Part shown: one piece after another, positions 6,888 through 19,089 of the stretch
Numbering within the stretch: the first letter of the stretch is position 1
Layout: each line of letters starts with the position of its first letter
DNA from: Pirellulales bacterium
GTDB lineage: Bacteria > Planctomycetota > Planctomycetia > Pirellulales > Lacipirellulaceae
Direction: 5' to 3'
Length of the DNA stretch: 39,728 nucleotides
Assembly: GCA_020847515.1 (NCBI GenBank)
Contig: JADLBW010000095.1
Coordinates: forward strand, 1-39,728
Notes under the pieces: generated by a model
What the model saw: the letters and a program-made list of their open reading frames with translations, nothing else
What the model was told of the DNA's origin: nothing
Databases searched by the model: none
Made by a program: the position numbers and the translations under genes

Positions 6888-8387
6888 TCAGCCGGCGCCG
6901 GTTGCGGCTTCCACCTGATGTACGATCACAATATCGTGAATACCGGCCGCCAGATCGGCGGCGCCCTCGGGGCCGGCCGCCAGGTGCGAACCTCCCACGA
7001 TGATTAATCGATCTCCCGGTTGAGCCAGTTGCTCGGCGCGCGCCCAGGCGTCAGCGTGGCGGATGAGTTGCTCCACATTGGTGGCTGGCGCGCCGCGCAG
7101 CGGCCTGACGCCCCAGTACAGGCACATCTTGCGGAGCGTGGCTTCGCTGGTACTGACGCCGATCGTCGGCGCCCAACTTCGCTGTTGCGACAGCGCCTGC
7201 GCCGTGCGACCGGAGTGGCTGGCCACCACGACCAGCTTGGCGTTCAGCGAATAGGCCATCGTGCCGGCGCCGCGCACAACGGCGCGAGTGATTTCCTGCA
7301 GATTGTCGGCTCGCGGACGAACGGCCTCGCGGGGCGGGCGCCCGGCGATCATCTCTTCGGTCGCCACGGCGCTGCGATTCATCATTTCCACCGCCTCCCG
7401 CGGATACTGGCCGATGGCCGTTTCGCCGGAGAGCATGCAGGCGTCGGCGCCGTCCAAGATGGCATTGGCTACGTCGGTCGCTTCGGCCCGAGTGGGGCGC
7501 GGCGAGTCCTGCATGCTGTCGAGCATCTGCGTCGCGATGATGGACGGCTTCTGGTACTCCTGACAGGCGCGAACGATCCGCTTTTGCTCCAGCGGAATTC
7601 GCGCAACGTCGATTTCGACGCCAAGGTCGCCCCGCGCCACCATGGCGCCGTCGGCTTCGGCGACGATCTCGTCCAGGCGGTTGAGGGCCTCGCGTTTTTC
7701 GATTTTGGCAATGATGCCGGCTCGCGATCCGTTGGAGCGAACGATGTCCTTGAGCGTTCGCACCTCGTCGGGCGAGCGCACGAAGCTCAGGCTGACATAG
7801 TCGATGCCGGCCTTTGCGGCCCAGATTGCATGCTGGTAGTCTTCGACGCTGATCGCCGGGGCGCTTAATCGCACATCCGGGAGGTTAATGCCTTGGCGGC
7901 TGCGGATGGTGCCTGGCTCGATGACTCGCAAGCGGACTCGCCCCGCCTTGGCTTCTTCGACGAGCATGCTTACGGTGCCGTCGGCCAGCATTACGACGTC
8001 GCCCTTAGCCAGCTCGTCGACCAGCGTCAGATAGGTCGACGTCAGCTCATGCGAGTCTGCCGGATTTTCGCGGACGAAGAAGAACTCCTCATCCCGATGA
8101 CAGAAAATGCTGCCGCCGTCGATTTCCTGCAGCCTTATCTTAGGGCCCGCCAGATCGGCCAGAATGGCGATTGGCTGATCTAATTGCCGGCTGATTTGCC
8201 GGATGTCATCCACAATTGGCTGATATAGCTCGGGGCTGCCGTGCGCCATGTTCAACCGCAGCAGATCGGCCCCGGCAGAGACAATCTCGGAGAGCTTTTG
8301 CGTCTCGCGGCACGCCGGTCCAACGGTGGCGACGATTTTGGTGCGGGCCCAACGTCGCCGGCCAGGGTTCTGCGATTTGGGTTCCAT
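6888..8387 (-). CDS. pyk: Pyruvate kinase
   Basis: Pyruvate kinase converts phosphoenolpyruvate and ADP to pyruvate and ATP, the last step of glycolysis. The 499-residue protein has the full domain set. The N-terminal barrel starts with KIVATVGPACRETQKL and LLRLNMAHGSPELYQ. The active-site region is IIAKIEKREALNRLDEIV (about 225-242), followed by DGAMVARGDLGVEI, the signature IATQMLDSM, RAEATDVANAILDGADACMLSGETAIG, and the C-terminal domain (VVVASHSGRTAQALSQQR). The gene faces leftward, convergent with the small membrane protein and divergent from the SDR gene. Its product, pyruvate, is the acceptor made or used by the transcarboxylase encoded at 34-39 kb, though the two loci are far apart here. 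Confidence 0.97.
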   Translation of the reverse strand: MEPKSQNPGRRRWARTKIVATVGPACRETQKLSEIVSAGADLLRLNMAHGSPELYQPIVDDIRQISRQLDQPIAILADLAGPKIRLQEIDGGSIFCHRDEEFFFVRENPADSHELTSTYLTLVDELAKGDVVMLADGTVSMLVEEAKAGRVRLRVIEPGTIRSRQGINLPDVRLSAPAISVEDYQHAIWAAKAGIDYVSLSFVRSPDEVRTLKDIVRSNGSRAGIIAKIEKREALNRLDEIVAEADGAMVARGDLGVEIDVARIPLEQKRIVRACQEYQKPSIIATQMLDSMQDSPRPTRAEATDVANAILDGADACMLSGETAIGQYPREAVEMMNRSAVATEEMIAGRPPREAVRPRADNLQEITRAVVRGAGTMAYSLNAKLVVVASHSGRTAQALSQQRSWAPTIGVSTSEATLRKMCLYWGVRPLRGAPATNVEQLIRHADAWARAEQLAQPGDRLIIVGGSHLAAGPEGAADLAAGIHDIVIVHQVEAATGAG

Positions 8388-8561
8388 TGGGAAATTCCGG
8401 TCAACATTGCGGCGCGTGGCAAGGAACAGCGACGGACGGTTATTGTCTCCGCTTGCCCGCCGGGTGGGAATACGGTCAACTCACCGCGGGCCCAGTTGGG
8501 TCTGGCCAGCCGGCTCGCCAGTCGGAAATGCCGTGAGCTGTTGAGATAAAGAGGGCCTTCG

Positions 8562-8580
8562 TACTACCGACCGCGTAGTA
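8562..8580. repeat. Short inverted repeat upstream of the SDR gene
   Basis: TACTAC at 8562-8567 is the inverse complement of GTAGTA at 8575-8580, with a 7-base GC-rich spacer. It lies 14 bases before the SDR start in the pyk-SDR divergent region and could be an operator half-site pair. With only 6-base arms, chance is a fair alternative. Confidence 0.25.
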
Positions 8581-8593
8581 TCGGCGTAACAGC

Positions 8594-9403
8594 ATGCCCT
8601 ATTGGGAAGGAAAAATTTGCGTTGTCACGGGCGGTTCGGCCGGGCTGGGGCTGGCGATTGCGATGGCGTTAGCTGAGCGCGGCGCCAAAGTCATACCCAG
8701 AGCTCGCAATGTCGAGCGTCTGGAGTCAGCGGCGCAATCGCTGCGGCGCCTCGGGGGCCTCGTTTCTCCCATGGCCGCCGACGTGGCATGGCAAGAGGAC
8801 GTCGACCGGCTGGCGGCGAAGATCGGCGATCAGTTCGGCCGCGTCGACTTTCTGTGCAATTGTGCGGGGCGTTCCGCGCGTGGCGGCATTCTGGAAACCA
8901 CTCCCGAGGACTTTCAGCAGTTGCTGGACGTCAATTTCCTCGCAGTCGTTCGCACGACTCGTGCATTGGCCCCGCTGCTGCTGGCCAGCCGCGGGCACCT
9001 GGTCAACATTGGCTCGCTGGCCAGCAAGACCGCCGCATGCTGCTTGGGCGCTTACCCAGCCAGCAAATTCGCACTCGCTGCTTATACCCAGCAGCTACGA
9101 TTGGAATTATCAGCACACGGGCTGCATGTGATGCTGGTCTGCCCGGGACCGATCGCTCGCCCGGACGGCGGCATTCGCTACGCCTCGGAGGCGCCGGACA
9201 TACCGGCGGCAGCGCAATCGCCTGGCGCCGGGACGAAGCTGCCGTCACTCGACCCTGGCCGGGTGGCCCACGCGATCCTCGCGGCCTGCCAGCGGCGCAG
9301 GCCGGAACTTGTGATCCCTCGCAAAGCGAAGGTCCTGTTTACGCTGTCTCAGATATCGGCGAGCTGGGGAGACTGGCTATTGCGTAAGGCGATGCGCGGC
9401 TGA
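8594..9403 (+). CDS. Short-chain dehydrogenase/reductase
   Basis: This is an NAD(P)-dependent oxidoreductase of the classical SDR family with 269 residues. The Rossmann motif is VVTGGSAGLGLAIAMALAERG (about 11-31), with RARN after the second strand pointing to NADP preference. NCAG is near 91, the catalytic serine lies in NIGSLASK near 137, and YPASK near 154 supplies the tyrosine and lysine. A hydrophobic stretch toward the C-terminus (FTLSQISASWGDWLLRKAM) may contact the membrane, as in SDRs acting on lipids or sphinganine precursors. The substrate is unknown. The gene is convergent with the sulfatase, with only 11 bases between the stops. No Shine-Dalgarno sequence is obvious. Confidence 0.9.
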   Translation: MPYWEGKICVVTGGSAGLGLAIAMALAERGAKVIPRARNVERLESAAQSLRRLGGLVSPMAADVAWQEDVDRLAAKIGDQFGRVDFLCNCAGRSARGGILETTPEDFQQLLDVNFLAVVRTTRALAPLLLASRGHLVNIGSLASKTAACCLGAYPASKFALAAYTQQLRLELSAHGLHVMLVCPGPIARPDGGIRYASEAPDIPAAAQSPGAGTKLPSLDPGRVAHAILAACQRRRPELVIPRKAKVLFTLSQISASWGDWLLRKAMRG

Positions 9404-9414
9404 ACGGCGCGCCG

Positions 9415-10767
9415 TCATGGCAGCGACTTACGCCAGTCGAGCGCTTGGTCGGTCAATTCCTCGACCACCGACGGCTGTTGCGCAGCAAGATTGTGCACTT
9501 CTTCCCGATCAGTTGACAGGTTGTAGAGCTCGGCGTTTGTGCCGTCGGCGTTGATGAGTAGCTTCCAAGGGCCGCTGCGGATTGCCACATTTGGCGACCG
9601 GTCGCGCGGTTTCTTTGGATATGCGAAGAACTCATCATTGCGGCCATATTCCCAATAGACGGGGCGTGAGCGCGTGTTAATGGCCTGGCCGAACAGTGCC
9701 GCGGAGACGTCCTCGCCGTCCGACGCGTAGTGCGGCGGTGGGGCCGCTTCAGCGATGCGACAAAACGTGGGAAACATGTCGACGGCCGCAATCACGCTCG
9801 TCGCATCCTCGCGACCCGCAGGGGTGTTATCGGGCCAGCAGGCAATAAACGGAAGCCGCAAGCCGCCTTCGTAAAGGCTAAGCTTCGAGCCGCGCAAGCC
9901 GCGCGTCCGCGCCTCCTTGAATGTCGGCAAAGGGCCGTTGTCGCTGGCAAAGATAAGCAGCGTCTCCTCTTCGACGCCCAGCTCGCGGAGCCCCCGACGC
10001 AGGCGGCCAATCTGCCGGTCCATCTCACGGATTACGCCTTGAAGGTTCGATCGCGTTTCGCGGTGTGGATCGGCGTCGGCGTCCGGCGTCCACGGCGTGT
10101 GCGTGTCATCGAGCCAGAGGTTCACAAAGCACGGCGAGCTCTTGTGTCGCCGGAGGAAATCCAGAGTAAGATCGACGAAGAACCCGGTCCGCTCCCAGCG
10201 TTTTACCTTATCCTCATTCGACCAGATCCAATCCGATGCCGTTATATCGGGATGCGGCTCGGGGCTCTCCCAGGTGCCGGCGGATGCATCGTAGCCGTAG
10301 GCCGCAAACCTCGGAGCATTCTCCACGTCGCGACCGCCGCCCAGATGCCATTTGCCGAAGTGTGCCGTTTTATAGCCGGATGCCTGGAGGGCCCGCGGCA
10401 GTGACGGGGCGGAGGCGTCCAGGTAATCGGCCTGCTCGCATCCTCGATTTCCGGCCCTGGTCTGCAGGTAGCTCGTGATGCGCCACCGTGCAGGGAATTG
10501 CCCGGTGATCAGTCCGCAACGAGAAGGCGAGCAGATTGGCGATGCGGCATAGTACTGTTCAAACCGAATGCCGTCGGCGGCAAGTTGATCGATATTCGGC
10601 GTCGGGGCGATCGTTCCCCCATAACAGCCCAGATCGCCCGGGCCCAGATCGTCGGCCAGCACGAAAATGATGTGTGGTCGAGCGGTCGATTCCGCCGCTC
10701 CGCCCAACACCGGGTTTAATACGAAGGCAACGACAAACAGCGTCCGCCAATTCAGTATCCCAGGCAT
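9415..10767 (-). CDS. Secreted arylsulfatase-type sulfatase
   Basis: This is a type I sulfatase that hydrolyses sulfate esters, probably on a sulfated polysaccharide outside the cytoplasm. Residues 1-25 form a signal peptide (LFVVAFVLNPVLGGAA). The metal-binding aspartates are in FVLADDLGPGDLG (about 35-47). The formylglycine motif is C-S-P-S-R at 79-83, so activation by a formylglycine-generating enzyme is expected. KWHLGG near 139 and ASDNGP near 279 are further active-site blocks. The 450 residues are typical. An in-frame ATG 21 bases upstream exists, but the internal ATG at 10767 gives a better signal peptide. Sulfatases are very abundant in planctomycetes. No polysaccharide-degrading neighbour is adjacent, so the substrate is not predictable. 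Confidence 0.93.
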   Translation of the reverse strand: MPGILNWRTLFVVAFVLNPVLGGAAESTARPHIIFVLADDLGPGDLGCYGGTIAPTPNIDQLAADGIRFEQYYAASPICSPSRCGLITGQFPARWRITSYLQTRAGNRGCEQADYLDASAPSLPRALQASGYKTAHFGKWHLGGGRDVENAPRFAAYGYDASAGTWESPEPHPDITASDWIWSNEDKVKRWERTGFFVDLTLDFLRRHKSSPCFVNLWLDDTHTPWTPDADADPHRETRSNLQGVIREMDRQIGRLRRGLRELGVEEETLLIFASDNGPLPTFKEARTRGLRGSKLSLYEGGLRLPFIACWPDNTPAGREDATSVIAAVDMFPTFCRIAEAAPPPHYASDGEDVSAALFGQAINTRSRPVYWEYGRNDEFFAYPKKPRDRSPNVAIRSGPWKLLINADGTNAELYNLSTDREEVHNLAAQQPSVVEELTDQALDWRKSLP

Positions 10768-10794
10768 CCTCGAATCCCTTTGTGGCATTCGAGG
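10768..10794 (-). promoter_or_regulatory. Hairpin enclosing the sulfatase ribosome binding site
   Basis: A perfect 8-base inverted repeat (CCTCGAAT at 10768-10775, ATTCGAGG at 10787-10794) ends directly at the preferred start codon of the sulfatase gene. On the coding strand the 11-base loop holds AAAGGG, the likely Shine-Dalgarno sequence. The structure could present or hide the ribosome binding site. The pairing is seen; regulation is inferred. Confidence 0.4.
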
Positions 10795-10850
10795 ATTATA
10801 TCAACTCGGACGCCCCGGCAGTCACGCCGGTTCGGTTGACCGCATGCGGC

Positions 10851-10900
10851 AACAAAAAAGGACTCCACGTGGCCCTGCGAGGATGCCAAGTGGAGTCCTT
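10851..10900 (-). terminator. Strong rho-independent terminator (leftward)
   Basis: AAGGACTCCAC at 10858-10868 pairs perfectly with GTGGAGTCCTT at 10890-10900, and an inner TGGC/GCCA extends the stem. Read leftward, the hairpin is followed by TTTTTTGTT. This is a textbook intrinsic terminator for leftward transcription, though it lies about 350 bases beyond the protease stop codon at 11250. It also insulates the sulfatase gene from upstream transcription. Confidence 0.85.
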
Positions 10901-11249
10901 CGGAGCTAGAGCGACTCGCAACTGCCTGTGGCGGGAACTGGTACGCGCCATACCCCGGCGCGACTCGTGCGAGAGTGGGACGCGGCTGGGTCGAAGGCGG
11001 GGGCGGCGACTCAGGGCGCCGCAATCCTTCACGACCGCGTCTTTTCGCTGATAGCGCATGCAGACGGGAGCATGCAGCGTGCCAATTGTTTAGCCGCTTC
11101 GCGAAGTGCACTTTAAGGACTCGGAATATCGCCGCATCTTGCTGGAATTCGCCGGGGATCGTCGGGTTCCGAACGATGCGTTGGCGAGCCGCTCATTGAA
11201 CAATCGACGCCTGATGCTTGTAGCTATTACAAGCGCCGCCGACGCTGCT
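10901..11249. other. Long gap between protease stop and terminator
   Basis: This 349-base stretch holds no gene I can support. It contains GCATGC repeated 14 bases apart (about 11057 and 11071), a CTTCGCGAAG palindrome near 11098, and a GCTTGTA/TACAAGC stem near 11215-11233. It may be a long 3' untranslated region of the protease transcript or hold a small RNA ending at the terminator. A GTG-initiated rightward frame of 87 codons (11106-11369) enters it but runs antisense into the protease gene. Confidence 0.4.
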
Positions 11250-12431
11250 TTAACGTACGAATCGCGCAAGCTGTATGGCGAGCGTGCCGCCGCCGATGAC
11301 GGCAAGTATGTTCCTTGCAGTATCAAGCCAATCGGCTCCGGCGATTGGCTGGGGCGAACCGTCTTCTGAGGAGGGCCTGACCACCTGCGGCATGCTCGCC
11401 CGTCCCGCCGTCGTGTGCCAGTCGCTGCTGACCGAGGCTTTGGGGCGTGCGTCCAGGCTGGCGGTGTCTTGCTCGAGTTTATCCGCGGGCAGCGTCGCGA
11501 TATCGCGTTTGACCCCCTCCGAACAAAGGGCCCCCGAAACTGGACCGCGCGGCGACGCAGATGCAAGCGACGCACTGGCTTGCCGCTGCGCGGCTGGATC
11601 GACCGCAGTTTCCGACGCTGGGCGCCGTGGCGCCTGATCGGCGGCTGCCAGCTCAATCGGCCGGCCGATATCCGGCGCAAGGCTAGCCAAAAACGACTCC
11701 ACACGGCCGCCGAAACTGCCCATGGTGGTCCCCTGCCCGGCGCCAAACAGGACCCCCGCCAGTTCGCCGCCCGCATTGAGAATCGGCCCGCCCGAATCGC
11801 CCTGTCGGGCCTCTACGTCTAACTCCACCATGTGCTGCGGTAAATCAAGCGCAGGCGCATAGTACTGCGTGCAGCGGCCGGTGGCTGCTCGGTACTGGCC
11901 GGATCCATATCCGCAAATCGTTAACACGTCGCCTGGCTGCGGGGCGCTGTCGGCAATCCTCACCGGTTCAGCGGCAGGCCGCCAGATGATAAGCGCCGCC
12001 AGATCCCAATCGGGGTCGACCTTCAGCGGCCGAGCCTTCGAACGAAATCCGTCCGGGAAAATCACCTCAACCTCGCCGCGACTATCGCGGACAACGTGCC
12101 AGTTGGTGACGACCAGACCGTAGTCGTCTCGCACGTCGACCAGAGTTCCGCTGCCGTAGGAGGTCATCTCTCCTTCCGGCACGACGATCCGGGCTACGGC
12201 CGGATGCGGCCGCTCAAACACCGAACGCGCCAGATTCCAGGGAATTCCGTCGACATCGACGGCGGGAAGCGGCGCAGGAGGGCCGAGGACGCCGGGGTGC
12301 GGCATGGCCACGGTGGCCTGAGCGACTTCAGCATTCGCTAGGGTCGCCGCAAGCGCAGCTCCACAGCAGGCCGCCCCCAGCCTCCGCAGCAGGGCGGACC
12401 GAAGGCAAGTGTTAGCTTGAGGTGCATACAC
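11250..12431 (-). CDS. Exported trypsin-like serine protease with C-terminal membrane anchor
   Basis: This is a chymotrypsin-fold serine protease of the S1C/trypsin-2 type. A signal peptide covers about residues 1-40. The catalytic triad is readable: histidine 112 in VVTNWHVV, aspartate 143 in DWDLAALI and serine 213 in QGDSGGPI. No PDZ domain follows. Instead there is a low-complexity proline, alanine and serine-rich linker of about 120 residues and a final hydrophobic segment (residues about 373-391, ILAVIGGGTLAIQLARFV) that looks like a membrane anchor. The start appears to be GTG at 12431, 24 bases after the 75-residue gene, so it is the last gene of a three-gene leftward cassette. Its substrate is unknown. 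Confidence 0.88.
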   Translation of the reverse strand: MYAPQANTCLRSALLRRLGAACCGAALAATLANAEVAQATVAMPHPGVLGPPAPLPAVDVDGIPWNLARSVFERPHPAVARIVVPEGEMTSYGSGTLVDVRDDYGLVVTNWHVVRDSRGEVEVIFPDGFRSKARPLKVDPDWDLAALIIWRPAAEPVRIADSAPQPGDVLTICGYGSGQYRAATGRCTQYYAPALDLPQHMVELDVEARQGDSGGPILNAGGELAGVLFGAGQGTTMGSFGGRVESFLASLAPDIGRPIELAAADQAPRRPASETAVDPAAQRQASASLASASPRGPVSGALCSEGVKRDIATLPADKLEQDTASLDARPKASVSSDWHTTAGRASMPQVVRPSSEDGSPQPIAGADWLDTARNILAVIGGGTLAIQLARFVR

Positions 12432-12455
12432 GATCGCTTCAGCGGCCGAACCTTT

Positions 12456-12683
12456 TTAACGGGCGACGTGGGCATCGGTAGCCGCCGCCTTGCGGCGATG
12501 TTCGTGGGCCTCGATCAGATGCAGCAATCGGGCTTTGAGCTGCGCAGCTTCATCTACACGGCGGTTTGACGGGCAGGGACCGTCGTCGATTGGAGTCTCC
12601 GCTGGCGGTTCCCCGCCCAGCGTCGTCGCCAGCCGCGACCATGCCAGCGAGGGCGACGGGACCTGCGGTGTCGTAGCATCCAT
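12456..12683 (-). CDS. Small hypothetical protein (75 residues)
   Basis: I do not recognise this protein. The first 50 residues are proline-rich and look disordered. The last 30 form a likely amphipathic helix (AAQLKARLLHLIEAHEHRRKAA) suited to dimerisation or partner binding. The start ATG has AAGGAG about 9 bases upstream, which supports real translation. It sits between the ribbon-helix-helix gene (12 bases) and the protease gene (24 bases) on the same strand. A helper role for one of these neighbours is plausible but unproven. Confidence 0.6.
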   Translation of the reverse strand: MDATTPQVPSPSLAWSRLATTLGGEPPAETPIDDGPCPSNRRVDEAAQLKARLLHLIEAHEHRRKAAATDAHVAR

Positions 12684-12695
12684 GGCGGCGCTCCT

Positions 12696-12935
12696 TCAAG
12701 CGGCGATAGGACGTCCGCCGCGAAGATCGGCGTCGCGCGGCGGAAAATCGCGGCCGTCGTTGTACAGCATTTTCAATCGCGCCAACTCCGCGCGAAACGC
12801 CTGCTCGGCGAGCTTCGTCAGCGTAAGTCGAGCCGGAAATCCCGCCAAATGCACGGCGGCGTCACGCGCCTCTTCAAGCAGGTCTTGCGGCAGGTAGAGC
12901 GTGGCGCGGATTTTAGGGCAGTCAGAACGCGTCAT
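12696..12935 (-). CDS. Ribbon-helix-helix DNA-binding protein
   Basis: This is a 79-residue protein with a ribbon-helix-helix fold: strand KIRATLYLP (8-16), helix 1 LLEEARDAAVHLA (19-31), then helix 2 TLTKLAEQAFRAELARLK (38-55). The tail (NDGRDFPPR...LRGGRPI) resembles the C-terminal tail of ParB-type centromere-binding RHH proteins, as I recall them. Such proteins bind short palindromes as dimers and often repress their own operon. The frame is open to 13049, but the ATG at 12935 has CGGAG upstream and starts just before the fold, so I prefer it. It is the first gene of the cassette leading to the protease. A perfect palindrome at 13073-13089 is a good candidate operator. Confidence 0.75.
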   Translation of the reverse strand: MTRSDCPKIRATLYLPQDLLEEARDAAVHLAGFPARLTLTKLAEQAFRAELARLKMLYNDGRDFPPRDADLRGGRPIAA

Positions 12936-13072
12936 GCCGGCTCCGGAGCAAAACTGGCGCGAACACGGGCGGCCGACGCAGTTGGCACGCTTTATACGCG
13001 GCCCGACGTCTGAATCCCCATTCCGCCCAAATCGAACTTTACTGTTCATCGGACCAACGACGAAGATTGCAT

Positions 13073-13089
13073 CAAACGTGTGACGTTTG
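13073..13089. promoter_or_regulatory. Candidate operator: perfect 17-bp palindrome
   Basis: CAAACGT at 13073-13079 and ACGTTTG at 13083-13089 form a perfect 7-base inverted repeat with a GTG spacer. It lies in the intergenic region upstream of the ribbon-helix-helix gene, where its own repressor would bind. RHH dimers typically bind such short symmetric sites. Binding itself is inferred. Confidence 0.5.
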
Positions 13090-13140
13090 GCGCTGTAACT
13101 TCACCAGCCGGCAGCAATTGCCCTAAACTGCAAGCTTGGC

Positions 13141-13162
13141 AAAAACTTCCCGATTTGCCGGG
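13141..13162 (-). terminator. Probable terminator after the uroporphyrinogen-III fusion gene
   Basis: Read leftward, directly after the TGA of the cobA/hemD fusion, CCCG pairs with CGGG across a 6-base loop and is followed by AAGTTTTTG. The stem is short, but the position right behind the stop codon and the T-run favour a terminator. Confidence 0.45.
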
Positions 13163-14719
13163 TCACTCCGGGCAGGGTCTTTCCTGATGCCGCTGGGGGC
13201 GAGCAATGCCTGGCTCCGCCCTCAGGATCGCGTCGAACAGGCCTCGCGACGTGTATTGATCGGCTACGGCAGCGGCCTGATAACCCGCATCGCCCAGAAC
13301 CGACGCCGTCAACGGGCTGATCGCGGCAAGCTTAGCGCGGCGCAAGTCCTGACCGAACAGTCCCATCAGCGCCCTGGCGATGGCGGAACTGGTCACCGTG
13401 ATCCAATCGATGCGCCCTTCGCGCAAGGCCGCAGTAACTTCGGCGTCAGCCGTCGTAACGTCGCGACTCTCGTACACGATCACTTGCTCCACGACGGCGC
13501 CGGCAGCCGAGAGCTCCTCGGCCAGGACTTCGCGACCCCGGCTGGCGCGCAACAGCAGCATTCGCTGGGCGCCAGCGCCGCTCAACAGCGCTTTAGCGAG
13601 CGACTCGGCTACGTATTCGTCCGGCTGTAGATCGGCGCGAAGATGATACTCGCTCAGCGCTTCTGCGGTGGCAGGACCGATTACCGCCAGCTTGGCGTCA
13701 CGCAAGGCGCGTAAATCGAGCCGATGGCGCCCCAATCGTTGGAGAAATCCATGTACGCCGTTGGCGCTGGAAAACACCAGCCAATCGAACTGGCTGAGCC
13801 GTTCAATGGCCGCATCCACAGCCGCCCAGTTCTGGGGCGGGCCAATCTCGATGGCGGGCTGAAACATGACCGCCGCGCCGGACTCAGCCAGTAACTCCGC
13901 TAGCGCCTCGGCCTGATGGACCGGCCGGGTTACTAATACGGTGCGACCGAACAACGGTCGTGCGGCGAACCAGTCCATCGATCCTCGCGCCGCCACCGCA
14001 TCGCCGACGATGATGATAGCGGGGGGCCGCAGGTTGATCGATTGAATTAAGCGCGGCAATTCCTGCAGCGTCGTAGTGTGCACCTGTTGCTGCGGCAAGC
14101 TGGCATGGCGCACCACTGCTACGGGAGTTTCAGATGGCTTACCGTGGGAAATCAATTCCGCGGCCCACTCAGCCGCCGACGAAACGCCCATGTAGAACAC
14201 AAGCGTTCCGGGAAATCTCGCGAGCGGCTCAAGGTCGAGCGAGGCGTCTTGTTTGTCGCTGCACAGTTGTCCTGTAATAAACGCGACGCCCGCTGCCGAC
14301 GCTCTATTGGTCAGCGGGAAACCGGCATACGCGCTAGCGGCTTGCGCCGCGCTGACGCCCGGAATCACCTCGTACGAAATGCGCGCCTCCTCTAAGGCGG
14401 CGATCTCTTCAGCCGTGCGACCGAAGATCGCGGGATCTCCCCCCTTAAGCCGGGCGACAACTTGGCCCGCTCGCGCTGCGGCGACCATTCGCCGGTGAAC
14501 TTCCTCCTGGTCAAGCAGGCGACCATGCCCGCGTCCGTGCCGTCCCAGGCAAACCAGCTCAGCGCCGGGCTTTGCAAACTTGAGGATCTGCGGATTAACC
14601 AGATAGTCGTACAGGACGAGGTCGGCGACTCGAAGTCGCTCGCGGCCGCGCAGGGTTAATAGCCCAGGGTCTCCCGGACCTGCGCCAATAAGATAGCATT
14701 TACCGGCGGCGGTAGGCAT
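13163..14719 (-). CDS. Uroporphyrinogen-III C-methyltransferase / uroporphyrinogen-III synthase fusion
   Basis: This 518-residue bifunctional protein joins two tetrapyrrole enzymes. Residues about 1-250 are the SAM-dependent methyltransferase (CobA/SUMT), which makes precorrin-2 for cobalamin or siroheme: YLIGAGPGDPGLLTLRG at the N-terminus, RLKGGDPAIFGR near 89, YEVIPGVSAAQAA near 115, LTNRASAAGVAFITGQ near 136 and IIIVGDAVA near 234. Residues about 258-500 are uroporphyrinogen-III synthase (HemD): GRTVLVTRP, SANGVHGFLQRLG, AVIGPATAEALSEY and VTSSAIARAL. Such CobA-HemD fusions occur in several phyla. The ATG at 14719 lies right before the conserved N-terminus. Its role in corrin supply would fit a B12-dependent methylmalonyl-CoA mutase elsewhere in the genome, but that is inference. 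Confidence 0.95.
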   Translation of the reverse strand: MPTAAGKCYLIGAGPGDPGLLTLRGRERLRVADLVLYDYLVNPQILKFAKPGAELVCLGRHGRGHGRLLDQEEVHRRMVAAARAGQVVARLKGGDPAIFGRTAEEIAALEEARISYEVIPGVSAAQAASAYAGFPLTNRASAAGVAFITGQLCSDKQDASLDLEPLARFPGTLVFYMGVSSAAEWAAELISHGKPSETPVAVVRHASLPQQQVHTTTLQELPRLIQSINLRPPAIIIVGDAVAARGSMDWFAARPLFGRTVLVTRPVHQAEALAELLAESGAAVMFQPAIEIGPPQNWAAVDAAIERLSQFDWLVFSSANGVHGFLQRLGRHRLDLRALRDAKLAVIGPATAEALSEYHLRADLQPDEYVAESLAKALLSGAGAQRMLLLRASRGREVLAEELSAAGAVVEQVIVYESRDVTTADAEVTAALREGRIDWITVTSSAIARALMGLFGQDLRRAKLAAISPLTASVLGDAGYQAAAVADQYTSRGLFDAILRAEPGIARPQRHQERPCPE

Positions 14720-14838
14720 GGCGTCGGTGCAAGTCAGCGGTTCTAGAATCTCCTGCGGCTGGACGTCCTGCCAAATTATGCAAGTCGCCAGTTGTAACGT
14801 CCCGACACGTTCGGTTCGTTTGGGGTAGCTCGCATAGT

Positions 14839-14866
14839 TTGTGACGCATCCGCGTATTGCTAGAAT
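14839..14866 (+). promoter_or_regulatory. Candidate sigma-70-type promoter for the TPR gene
   Basis: TTGTGA at 14839-14844 and TAGAAT at 14861-14866 are separated by 16 bases and lie 78 bases before the TPR protein start, in the divergent region shared with the cobA/hemD fusion. The match to consensus is fair. It was found by eye only. Confidence 0.35.
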
Positions 14867-14943
14867 AGCAGGCTGGCGGGCCGCCTGCGTAGCGACGTGC
14901 AGAGCCAGGGGCCGCCGACTCGCGAGTCGAACCTGTTGCAGTT

Positions 14944-16422
14944 ATGGCGATCGAATCCAAAACCGCTACGCAACCTGCCCCGCGGGGCCCCGCGCCATTG
15001 CCGGCGACCGTTCGCGCCCGTCTCCAGAAAGTCTACGAGCACGCCCGCCGCTGTGTAGACAAGGGAGATCACGACTACGCCCACCAGCTCTACGCCCAGT
15101 GCGTATCGGAGGACCCGGCCAACATCGTGTACTTGCAGGCATTTCTTGCCAACCTGCAAAAGAAGTATGGCAATAACAAACGCGGTGCAAAACTGGCCGG
15201 GCTGAAGATCAAGAGCCACCGCTCTGCAATGCACAAGGCGGCTGAGAAAGGAAACTGGCTGGCCGCCTTTCAAGCGGGCTGCGCGGCACTTGCCTTAAAC
15301 CCCTGGGATGTGCCTACCTTGCAACAAATGGCCGAGGCCTGCAATACCCTTGGCGTCGACGAATGCCAACTGTACTACCTCCGCTGGGCCCTTGACGTCG
15401 ATCCAAAAGACCCTTCCGTCAACCGCCAGGCAGGTCTGGCACTGCAGCGAATGGGGCAGTTCGATCAGGCAATCGCTTGCTGGCATCGCGTCGAACAAGC
15501 CAAACCGGGCGACGAGGAGGCCCAGTTGGCAGTATCGCGCCTCTCCGTTGAAAAGACGATCCATCAGGGTGGCTACGATCCGGCCCTCCTCGCGGGGGGC
15601 AAAGAAGGCGGCGACGCTGAATCGGCGCGGTCCTTTTCGGTGGCGCGAATTTCGCGCGCCGCCGCCGAAGAAGATGACTCGGAAGACGCAGCGCTGAGCG
15701 ATCTGTCGCCCGAAGATCGTCTGGCGGCCGCAATCGCCAAGGAGCCAGCGGAGCTGGAGAACTATTTCCGCCTGGCCGACCACTTTGTGCACGCCGGCCG
15801 CCTGGACGACGCCCAGCAGGTGCTTGACCGTGCTAACCAGGCGTCCGGAGGCGGCAATTTGGTAGTGCGCGAGCGGTTGGAAGATATACAGCTCCGCCGG
15901 GCTGCGCACCAGGTCGCCGCTGCCCAGCAGAACTTCGAACATGAAAAGACGCCGGCCGCTCAGCAACTGCTGGAGCGGGCCCGCCTACAGGCCAACCAGG
16001 TCGAACTCGAGGTGTATGCCGCCCGGGCAGATCGCGATCCGCACAATCCGCGGCTCCAGTTTGAGGTTGGCCTGCGGCTCAAGCGGGCCGGCAAGCCCAA
16101 ACAGGCCATTACCCCCCTTCAGGCCGCGCGGGCCGATGCCAAGCGGCGGCCCTTGGTGCTTGTCGAATTGGGCGAGTGCTTTCAGAAAATCGAGCAATAT
16201 AAACTTGCCCTTGCCCATTACGAACAGGCCATCGAGTCGGCCGACGCGGCAGAAAATGAGGTTCGCAAGCTGGCCCTTTACCGGGCCGGCGTACTGGCGA
16301 CCGGCCTGCGTGAGCTGGACCGTGCGGAACGCCACCTGTCCGAATTGGCCGGCCTGGATTACGGCTATCGCGATGTTTCGGAACGACTGGACAAACTCGG
16401 CCGCTTACGCGATAGTGGTTGA
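14944..16422 (+). CDS. Large cytoplasmic TPR-repeat protein
   Basis: This 492-residue protein consists mostly of tetratricopeptide-like helix pairs and has no signal peptide. Repeats are recognisable from about residue 25 (LQKVYEHARRCVDKGDHDYAHQLY), through PWDVPTLQQMAEACNTLG and PSVNRQAGLALQRMGQFDQAIACWHRV. After an acidic linker (EEDDSEDAALSD, about 239-251) they resume with LENYFRLADHFVHAGRLDDAQQVL, LQFEVGLRLKRAGKPKQAITPL and LVELGECFQKIEQYKLALAHYEQAI. TPR arrays act as protein-binding scaffolds. Similar proteins are common in planctomycetes, but I know no specific function. The gene is divergent from the cobA/hemD fusion and stands alone before rpsT. Confidence 0.88.
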   Translation: MAIESKTATQPAPRGPAPLPATVRARLQKVYEHARRCVDKGDHDYAHQLYAQCVSEDPANIVYLQAFLANLQKKYGNNKRGAKLAGLKIKSHRSAMHKAAEKGNWLAAFQAGCAALALNPWDVPTLQQMAEACNTLGVDECQLYYLRWALDVDPKDPSVNRQAGLALQRMGQFDQAIACWHRVEQAKPGDEEAQLAVSRLSVEKTIHQGGYDPALLAGGKEGGDAESARSFSVARISRAAAEEDDSEDAALSDLSPEDRLAAAIAKEPAELENYFRLADHFVHAGRLDDAQQVLDRANQASGGGNLVVRERLEDIQLRRAAHQVAAAQQNFEHEKTPAAQQLLERARLQANQVELEVYAARADRDPHNPRLQFEVGLRLKRAGKPKQAITPLQAARADAKRRPLVLVELGECFQKIEQYKLALAHYEQAIESADAAENEVRKLALYRAGVLATGLRELDRAERHLSELAGLDYGYRDVSERLDKLGRLRDSG

Positions 16423-16520
16423 TTCCCATCGACGCTAAAACGGCGCCTCTGGGGGAATTGGCCGCTAGTTCGCCGGCGGCGCCCAGGGGGGAGAGTCCGG
16501 ATAAACCTTAGGACGCGTCA

Positions 16521-16536
16521 GCCGAAGAACTTCGGC
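16521..16536 (+). promoter_or_regulatory. Hairpin in the rpsT leader region
   Basis: GCCGAA and TTCGGC form a perfect 6-base stem closed by GAAC, located 51 bases before the rpsT start. It could be part of a leader structure for S20 expression or a weak end signal for the TPR gene upstream. No T-run follows. Confidence 0.3.
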
Positions 16537-16586
16537 GTGCCGCTCCTGCATACCGTCCATACATGGTTTCGATTTAGAACTGCGCT

Positions 16587-16865
16587 ATGCCCAATTCAGC
16601 TACTGCCAAAAAGCGACTTCGCCAGAGCATCGATCGCCGCGCCCGCAATCGCACGCTCCGCTCGGCGCTTCGCACTCAGATCAAGAAGGTTCGTACTGCC
16701 ATTGCGGGCGGCGATGCTGCTGCCGCAGAGGAGCAATTCCGCATGGCTGCCAAGAAGCTCGACCAGTCAGCGGCTAAGAAGGTTCTACATCCCAACGCCT
16801 CGGCTCGGCTAAAGTCGCGGCTTTCCAAGGCCGTTAAGGCCATGAAGGCGCAGGCGGCGACGTAA
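16587..16865 (+). CDS. rpsT: 30S ribosomal protein S20
   Basis: S20 is a small helical protein that binds 16S rRNA in the small ribosomal subunit. The 92-residue basic sequence starts [14 protein letters not shown] and carries the family blocks [20 protein letters not shown] and [27 protein letters not shown]. Length and composition are normal. It stands as a single gene with its own leader, the usual situation for rpsT. A GGCCGCT/AGCGGCC inverted repeat about 20 bases after its stop may help end transcription. Confidence 0.97.
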
Positions 16866-16885
16866 ATGCCCCACGGGGGTTGACT

Positions 16886-16917
16886 GGCCGCTGAGATCGC
16901 GCCGTACGTAAGCGGCC
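16886..16917. terminator. Possible terminator between rpsT and pyrK
   Basis: GGCCGCT (16886-16892) pairs with AGCGGCC (16911-16917) across an 18-base spacer in the convergent gap between rpsT and pyrK. There is no T-run on either side, so this is a weak call for an end structure serving both directions. Confidence 0.3.
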
Positions 16918-16978
16918 TCAACCACATGGGCCAGCCGTTAACTTGCGGGCCTGGCTTTATCAGGCGCCTGCGCGGGGT

Positions 16979-17890
16979 TCACCATTCGATCGTTTCGGCT
17001 GGGAAGACCGGCCCTTCCACGCAGGTGCGCTTATAGTCCCAGCCGCCGTCGGGGTGGCGGACTTTTACGACGCAACTGAAGCAAATGCCGATGCCGCATG
17101 CCATCGGCGTTTCTAGCGACGCCTCGCAGGGAATCCCTCGCGTCGCGGCCAGGCGGGCGACCGCCTCCATCATCTTCTCAGGGCCGCAGCATGCGAGCTG
17201 CACGTCCGTGGTTACGTTTTCGTCCAGCGCCTGCGCCAATAGATCGGTCACTAGTCCTGGGCGGCCAATGCTGCCGTCGTCGCTGCTGATTCGCACGTCG
17301 GCGCCGGCCCGCCGAAAGTCTTCTACGCCGGCCAGCAGTTCCGCTGAGCGAACGCCATAGCAGAGCGTCGCTCTGGATACCTTCGTCGAAGCACGCCGCT
17401 GATCCCCGTAGCGGCGGCTGCCGAGGGCTTCTTGCGCTAGTGCAAGAAACGGCGTCTGGCCGATACCGCCGGCGACCATGATCAAATGGTCAGCCCGCGC
17501 CGGCGCGAATCCATTGCCCAACGGCCCCCAGACTTCCAGCGCATCCCCGGGTCGAAAGGCAGAAAGCCGACGCGTCATCTTGCCGACGGCCAGGTACACC
17601 ACGTCGATTCCTAGGACGCTTCCTGCGGCGTCGCACCACGTGTCGTAGAGCGCCAACGGCCTTCCCAGTAACGGGTCGTTACAGCCTGCTAGGCGCACCA
17701 TCACGAACTGGCCTGGCACGATCCGACGTGCAATGTCAGCACACTCGAACCGCAGGCGATAGGTATCGCGTGCGAGCGGGATGTTCTCTACTACCGCAGC
17801 GCAGGTCTGCAGCGCCTGGTCGGCGTAATGCGCGGCGGCCAGGGGATTGCCGGCCGCCGTAAAGCCGCCGAGCTCAGAAGCTTGCTTCAC
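16979..17890 (-). CDS. pyrK: Dihydroorotate dehydrogenase electron transfer subunit (PyrK type)
   Basis: This FAD and [2Fe-2S] protein passes electrons from dihydroorotate dehydrogenase (PyrD type 1B) to NAD in pyrimidine synthesis. The 303 residues contain a ferredoxin-reductase-like FAD domain with GQFVMVRL (about 60-67) and GRPLALYD (76-83). An NAD-binding domain follows with MVAGGIGQTPFLALA (138-152) and CCGPEKMM (234-241). The C-terminal cluster has cysteines 265, 270, 273 and 290, the PyrK spacing. The start is GTG at 17890, overlapping the TGA of the rluB-type gene by four bases, so it is translationally coupled to it. No pyrD lies beside it in this window. Other small flavin reductases share the fold, but the cysteine pattern favours PyrK. 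Confidence 0.88.
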   Translation of the reverse strand: MKQASELGGFTAAGNPLAAAHYADQALQTCAAVVENIPLARDTYRLRFECADIARRIVPGQFVMVRLAGCNDPLLGRPLALYDTWCDAAGSVLGIDVVYLAVGKMTRRLSAFRPGDALEVWGPLGNGFAPARADHLIMVAGGIGQTPFLALAQEALGSRRYGDQRRASTKVSRATLCYGVRSAELLAGVEDFRRAGADVRISSDDGSIGRPGLVTDLLAQALDENVTTDVQLACCGPEKMMEAVARLAATRGIPCEASLETPMACGIGICFSCVVKVRHPDGGWDYKRTCVEGPVFPAETIEW

Positions 17891-19089
17891 GGCCGCTCCT
17901 TGCCCGTACGGCCGCGGCCCTTGGGTTGTGCTCCGCCTGGGGGCTTTCCACCGGCGCCGCCTCGTTTAGTCGATCGGCGACGGCGCTTGGCCGCAGGAGG
18001 GCCTTCTTTGGCGGGGCGCCCCGCTACTGCGCTGTCGTCGCCGATAATGCGGCGCTGCGTAGTAACCTTACTGCGAGCCGGCCGCCGCTGGCGACTTGCA
18101 TTCGGTACGCCTTCCTCAATGCCTGCTAGCGGACCGCCGCGCCGGCCGCGTGGCCTGCGACTGTGTTGCGAGCGTGGTCTGCCGGACAGCGGTTGATCTC
18201 GGCGCTCGCCCGCCAGGCACGCAGCAGCCTCTGATCGTAGCTTTTGGACTTCGTCTCGTGATAGCGCTCGGACGGCGCCGCGCGGTAGCTCGCCGAGGCG
18301 GACGGGGCCGACGGCGATGCGCACCAGTCGCTGCACTTTGTGTCCCAGCCGGGCCAGCAGCCGCCGGATTTCGCGGTTCCGCCCTTCATCGAGCGCCATC
18401 TCCAGGATCGTGGAGCCCTTCTTCCGGCTGTTCACCTTCACGTCGACCGCGTGCACATAGCCTTCGGCTAGATGAACGCCCCGTTTGATCTGCGAGAGCA
18501 CGTCGGGCTCGGGCTGACCTGCAACCGTTACTTCGTAGATTTTGTTAACCCCGTGCTTCGGGTGGGTTAGCCGATGCGCCAGTTCGCCATCATTGGTGAC
18601 TAGAATCAGCCCTTCGCTCGCCAGATCGAGCCGCCCGACGTTGAACATGCGGCCGATGCCAGGCGGCAGCAGATCGATCACGCGCGGCCGCCCGGCCGGA
18701 TCGCGGGCGGTGGAGACGACGCCCGTCGGCTTATGAACCGCGAAATATTGCAACTTGGGTCTCGGCAGCGGCTCGCCGTCGACGCGGATTTCCTGCTGCC
18801 GGCGATCGACCCGGGCTCCCAGTTCCGTCACGACTCGGCCGTCGACTTCGACGCGTCCTTCAAGAATGAGCTGCTCGCATTCGCGGCGGCTGGCAATGCC
18901 GGCGGCCGCGAGCACCTTTTGCAGGCGGTCGCCTTCGGGGGGGCCGTCGGAAGCTGGGGGCGCCGCGTGCAGAGCGGCGTTGTGTCGCCGGGAAGCGGGG
19001 GGCGCCGCCTGGACCCCTCGGCGGGCCCGGCTGCCCTTAGCCCCAACGGGGGTGTCGGCGTGTTTTTTTTTCTTTTCGGGGCGAGGCAT
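17887..19089 (-). CDS. RluB/RsuA-family rRNA pseudouridine synthase
   Basis: This enzyme converts a uridine in ribosomal RNA (23S for RluB) to pseudouridine. An S4 RNA-binding domain spans about 54-100 (RLQKVLAAAGIASRRECEQLI). The catalytic domain includes the active-site aspartate 155 in GRLDLASEGLILVTNDGEL. LTHPKHGVNKIYEVTV and MALDEGRNREIRRLLARLGHKV are further family blocks. Both ends carry basic low-complexity tails: residues 1-52 and about 295-400 are rich in arginine, lysine, glycine and proline. These tails are longer than in enterobacterial RluB. Codons 6-9 include a run of nine adenines, a possible slippage site. The gene ends in a GTGA overlap with pyrK. Confidence 0.92.
   Translation of the reverse strand: MPRPEKKKKHADTPVGAKGSRARRGVQAAPPASRRHNAALHAAPPASDGPPEGDRLQKVLAAAGIASRRECEQLILEGRVEVDGRVVTELGARVDRRQQEIRVDGEPLPRPKLQYFAVHKPTGVVSTARDPAGRPRVIDLLPPGIGRMFNVGRLDLASEGLILVTNDGELAHRLTHPKHGVNKIYEVTVAGQPEPDVLSQIKRGVHLAEGYVHAVDVKVNSRKKGSTILEMALDEGRNREIRRLLARLGHKVQRLVRIAVGPVRLGELPRGAVRALSRDEVQKLRSEAAACLAGERRDQPLSGRPRSQHSRRPRGRRGGPLAGIEEGVPNASRQRRPARSKVTTQRRIIGDDSAVAGRPAKEGPPAAKRRRRSTKRGGAGGKPPGGAQPKGRGRTGKERP

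Follow-up and report, generated by a model that had tools for sequence, protein, structure and literature searches.

A conserved three-gene cassette of the order Pirellulales with a partition-type ribbon-helix-helix protein, a dedicated palindrome and a putatively membrane-tethered serine protease

The analysed window is a 39,728-nucleotide stretch (contig JADLBW010000095.1, positions 1–39,728) of a Pirellulales bacterium of the Lacipirellulaceae (assembly GCA_020847515.1), the source genome of which comprises 4.18 Mb and is 68.6% complete. On its minus strand, a palindromic operator is followed by a ribbon-helix-helix (RHH) gene, a 12-nt gap, a small gene, a 24-nt gap, a protease gene and a terminator-like hairpin. 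The shared strand and the two gaps given for the three open reading frames in the initial annotation were reproduced. The features are as follows.

13073–13089, no strand assigned: palindromic operator CAAACGT-GTG-ACGTTTG, consensus AAACGTCnGACGTTT (cross-locus and genome-wide matching)
13048–13057, minus strand: second element, TCCGA/CCGAT, at a fixed spacing of 34–36 nt from the operator start
12696–12935, minus strand: RHH partition-ParB-like DNA-binding protein, 79 aa, C-terminus GGRPIAA (open reading frame, alignment, predicted structure)
12456–12683, minus strand: small protein, 75 aa, with the C-terminal helix motif LRxRLLxMIxxNExxRR (open reading frame, HMM, pN/pS)
11250–12431, minus strand: trypsin/HtrA-type serine protease, 393 aa, predicted to be exported, with a C-terminal transmembrane helix and no PDZ match (Pfam, fold, alignment)
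10857–10901, minus strand: terminator-like hairpin with a U run (folding energy)

The RHH reading frame listed from 13049 carries a non-conserved N-terminal extension, and the conserved gene occupies 12696–12935. The strong terminator that had been placed downstream was borne out by the hairpin (minimum free energy −34.9 kcal/mol over 81 nt, z −3.5), which lies ~350 nt beyond the protease stop and ahead of the start of a sulfatase gene. By Pfam, the cassette is flanked by this sulfatase downstream and by a HemD/methyltransferase fusion upstream, and the farther neighbours encode a pyruvate kinase, a short-chain dehydrogenase, a TPR protein, ribosomal protein S20, an oxidoreductase and a pseudouridine synthase. 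The HemD-tetrapyrrole methylase fusion spans 13163–14719, and a homologous upstream frame was seen in 33 of 79 loci compared.

Conservation of the unit was assessed across 246 genomes of the order, using an RHH profile built from 23 proteins, which matched in 61 genomes, and a protease profile, which matched in 159 at E ≤ 1e-40. The protease lay downstream of the RHH gene on the same strand in 57 of the 61 RHH-positive genomes, with 224–721 nt between the profile ends, and the small-protein HMM matched between the two genes in 57 of 58 loci; the genomes are related, and these locus and genome counts are not independent. The proposed three-gene order is thus conserved. In three of the four RHH-positive genomes lacking a downstream protease (G053, G055 and G066), the contig breaks off within 63–422 nt of the RHH gene, while the fourth (G032) is truly without the protease and has kept the RHH gene and an open reading frame with the small motif. 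Similarly, in a collection of named loci, which shares many genomes with the order set, the protease was present at 47 of 53 RHH loci, with five of the other six ending at a contig end and the sixth (L272) being the same G032-type locus. By eye, the next long open reading frame at that locus looks like a precorrin methyltransferase.

All RHH relatives with names belong to the Planctomycetota, mostly to the Pirellulales. In a phylum-wide search of 392 genomes, the protease subfamily was found in four, all Pirellulales, and the RHH protein in three, namely the source genome and two distant matches without the full tail, and an extension of the cassette beyond the order was accordingly rejected. 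A phage origin was likewise rejected: neither the RHH nor the small protein matched PHROG, and a truncated RHH-to-protease fragment on an IMG/VR contig (L306, 1–4415) lies between a phage-like gene and a transcription-factor-like end, both of them unrelated, and seems to stem from a chimeric assembly.

The loci that have lost one component bear on the role of the two upstream genes. In genome G017 (locus L158), the RHH gene is a pseudogene and the operator is degraded to 10 of 14 positions, while the small gene and the protease are intact, making this locus a natural knockout of the regulator. Only the GGRPIAA end of the RHH remnant remains in an open frame, about 480–200 nt before the protease frame. 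In genome G049 (L175), the RHH gene and protease are kept, and no small gene was found by profile at the locus or elsewhere in the genome. Several Lacipirellulaceae genomes keep the protease without the RHH gene. These loss patterns indicate a core made up of the protease, in many cases together with the small gene, and an RHH protein that is a dispensable regulator; an obligatory antitoxin role fits neither of the two upstream genes. They bear directly on the idea that the cassette is a toxin-antitoxin-like module, in which a harmful protease would be neutralised by the RHH and small proteins, with the RHH protein as autoregulating antitoxin. The cassette resembles type II toxin-antitoxin operons in having a small RHH gene first, followed by the small gene and the effector at tight spacing, under a palindromic operator; the RHH fold is also common to antitoxins, although the structural match of the RHH model to ParD2 was distant and insignificant. 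However, the effector here is a 393-aa exported protease that is retained at loci without the RHH or the small gene, it sits at a fixed place beside the hemD-type gene in most Lacipirellulaceae loci, and it would act across the membrane from both proposed antitoxins. We therefore regard a toxin-antitoxin module as unlikely, and the antitoxin role that had been contemplated for the small protein is weakened.

The palindrome at 13073–13089 consists of two perfect 7-bp arms around a 3-nt centre; its earlier description as a perfect 17-bp palindrome is correct for the arms and slightly overstated for the whole, given the spacer between them. By itself this palindrome is unremarkable and could plausibly have arisen by chance, and it is conservation that gives it significance. 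At 57 of 60 RHH loci, a site agreeing with the consensus AAACGTCnGACGTTT at no fewer than 12 of 14 positions lies within ~350 nt upstream, against a best match of 11/14 in 60 shuffled regions (one shuffle per region). Such a site was lacking only at L158, which carries the RHH pseudogene, at L182, which has no protease, and at L191, where the sequence ends after 85 nt. In the named collection, the operator reached at least 12/14 at 51 of 53 RHH loci. By contrast, only one of 21 protease loci without the RHH gene (L208) had such a site nearby. Exact copies of the consensus occurred in 16 of 43 Lacipirellulaceae genomes, once in each and in all 16 cases at the cassette, while the reversed pattern, used as control, matched in three genomes of the same set. 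Together with the conservation across loci, this cassette-only distribution rules out chance. Within the source genome, the operator is the sole site with at most one mismatch, and sites with up to two mismatches numbered nine, as did those of the reversed-pattern control, so that a regulon-wide site was discarded. The restriction of single exact copies to the cassette points to one dedicated site per genome for the neighbouring RHH protein, and this co-conservation suggests that the RHH protein binds the palindrome.

The operator lies at a variable distance from the conserved RHH domain (in most loci about 65–355 nt), and no sigma-70 promoter was found. For these two reasons, repression by promoter occlusion is a tentative reading, and the RHH protein could be an activator instead of a repressor. 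A second element accompanies the operator at fixed spacing: of 57 loci, 18 have TCCGA at +34/+35, 21 have CCGAT at +35/+36 and six have TCCGA at −32. It follows the operator in one group of loci and precedes it in a different group. This element may be a promoter core, or part of one, or a half-site. Upstream of the cassette, L142, L143 and L144 also share an inverted repeat of 17 nt, which reads GCGGCTCGTTGAGCCGC or the complement, stands at differing distances and is possibly a REP-like repeat of the genus.

To what family the RHH protein belongs was addressed through sequence and predicted structure. The window protein matched no Pfam family, and PF18064 (CB_ParB_C) was matched weakly by nine of the 23 RHH members. 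An AlphaFold model of the protein (pLDDT 85) gave a single confident structural match, the ParB protein of pCXC100 (3no7, probability 1.00, TM 0.61/0.77, with a weak Foldseek E of 0.054), in agreement with a sequence match to the same protein (E 1e-4) and with the ParB-like RHH identity proposed initially. The cassette protein shares with this type Ib centromere-binding group the RHH fold, in which the second helix is long, and the NxGxxF and GRP motifs of the tail. It differs in its very short N-terminus, its invariant [IL]AA end and its place at the head of a protease operon. Moreover, on Streptomyces and Salinibacter plasmids, RHH relatives are encoded immediately after parA (two of three hits inspected), whereas Pfam detected no ParA next to the RHH gene among 11 window open reading frames (6888–19089). 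In a review, type Ib centromere-binding proteins are described as also acting as repressors, and pCXC100 as using direct repeats (PMC5016525), whereas the cassette has a single palindrome per genome, plus the partial second element, in place of a repeat array. These features also help to weigh the alternative that the palindrome is another regulator's site or part of a promoter, with the RHH protein acting elsewhere, for example in DNA organisation. The fixed spacing of the second element suggests that further factors act at the operator region, and the family is known for centromere binding; against this, the operator is missing or degraded at nearly all loci without an intact RHH gene, its exact form is restricted to the cassette, parA is lacking beside the RHH gene in the window, and a single site per genome falls short of a centromere array. 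We consider this alternative rather improbable.

The GGRP[IL]AA tail was present in all 52 complete RHH genes of the named set. ClpXP recognises ssrA tags. A survey of 12 genomes of the order yielded nine tmRNA tags, eight of which terminate in LAA, while the other one seems to be mispredicted; ARAGORN made no call for three tmRNAs. The invariant [IL]AA end, taken together with these tags, makes a ClpXP-type degron plausible, on a resemblance of three residues. Alternatively, this tail could serve a structural purpose or mediate docking.

The protease has a signal-peptide-like N-terminus and a trypsin-like domain (Trypsin_2, E 8e-20, Pfam), in which H112, D143 and S213 were invariant across 46 protease sequences; by motif, we take these to be the catalytic His-Asp-Ser residues. 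Its catalytic domain is in these respects that of HtrA (S1C) proteases, and its fold is nearest to DegP, DegS and Rv3671c/MarP. No PDZ domain was matched by Pfam; in the place of the C-terminal PDZ domain of the HtrA group, the model shows a low-confidence linker and then one helix. This hydrophobic helix spans residues 367–392 in the window protease, and a C-terminal hydrophobic segment was found in 53 of 55 relatives. The predictions thus agree with the original description of an exported, C-terminally anchored protease without PDZ domain. MarP and DegS are membrane-tethered, as is proposed here for the cassette protease, and MarP and DegS/DegP share with it a trypsin-like catalytic domain of periplasmic type with an invariant triad. 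The cassette protease differs from them in the lack of a PDZ match and in having a C-terminal helix anchor as opposed to N-terminal helices, and it scored far below the cut-off of the MarP family (NCBIfam NF033740, 55.9 versus 250 bits), with the cut-offs of other HtrA families similarly missed.

The protease was also the only component to be matched by trypsin-domain models of PADLOC (RT-Protease_XI, E 1.3e-9), which might be taken to support the suggestion that the cassette is an anti-phage or other defence module. However, these matches cover the generic trypsin domain only, none was obtained for the small or RHH protein, the neighbours of the cassette are ordinary housekeeping genes, and the placement next to hemD is kept in the Lacipirellulaceae. 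There is thus no sign of a defence role, which we judge very improbable.

The middle protein varies in length from 39 to 102 aa around its conserved C-terminal motif, LRxRLLxMIxxNExxRR, and lacks a recognisable signal peptide. A regular expression for the motif missed some loci, and an HMM was used instead. Its matches reached at least 18.7 bits in 55 of the 57 positive loci and only 7.7–8.6 bits in L147 and L160, the HMM having been trained on 49 of the loci on which it was run. The small protein with a C-terminal helix of the initial annotation is a regular part of the unit. Among the 47 named loci with RHH gene and protease, it was detected by HMM in 43 and by eye in two more, leaving two without. 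At the 21 protease loci without the RHH gene, it was present just upstream at 15 bits or more in eight, weakly (5.8–9.3 bits) in three and absent in ten. The small gene is under purifying selection (pooled pN/pS 0.34), and with pN/pS of 0.11–0.62 in 15 of 15 pairs and the conserved motif, a non-coding frame was ruled out. No Pfam family was matched by more than one of 46 members, and assignment to a known Pfam or PDB family was rejected, as matches were scattered or weak only. The protein appears to represent a new family, defined by its linkage to the RHH and protease genes.

The loss patterns favour an autoregulated operon of the order Pirellulales that supplies a membrane-tethered envelope protease, with the RHH protein repressing it through one dedicated operator, and we consider this reading probable. 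The RHH protein would be descended from, or share ancestry with, plasmid partition centromere-binding proteins of the pCXC100 ParB type, and would bind AAACGTCnGACGTTT just upstream and repress its own operon. Its [IL]AA end, like the tmRNA tags of the order, probably shortens its lifetime, so that the operon would be derepressed quickly once RHH synthesis falls. The protease, with its predicted signal peptide, periplasmic HtrA-type catalytic domain, flexible linker and C-terminal membrane helix, most likely cleaves or clears envelope proteins; a role in envelope stress, as first suggested, would be a guess. The conserved, amphipathic helix of the small protein probably docks on a partner in the pathway and modulates either protease or regulator. 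In a more speculative extension, which we hold to be doubtful, a partition protein captured onto the chromosome in early Pirellulales, and bearing an ssrA-like degron, became a repressor acting at one operator, its lifetime serving as a readout of cytosolic proteolysis (e.g. ClpXP load) and thereby setting the level of the membrane-tethered envelope protease, with the small protein linking both compartments.

Each part of this presumed autoregulated operon is of a known kind; what seems to be undescribed is their combination, along with the dedicated operator and the family formed by the small protein. A literature search, of limited reach into subscription papers, found no description of the three-gene unit, in line with the earlier suggestion that it may be an undescribed one. 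In all likelihood, a partition-type RHH protein here regulates a protease operon through a single operator, and the cassette illustrates this cleanly across a whole order. The unit further provides a handle on envelope proteolysis in planctomycetes, the cell envelope of which is unusual and poorly understood. Since it is clear what the operator, the regulator and the target are, the predictions are directly testable in cultured strains such as Lacipirellula limnantheis, which is among the named relatives closest to the window by RHH sequence.
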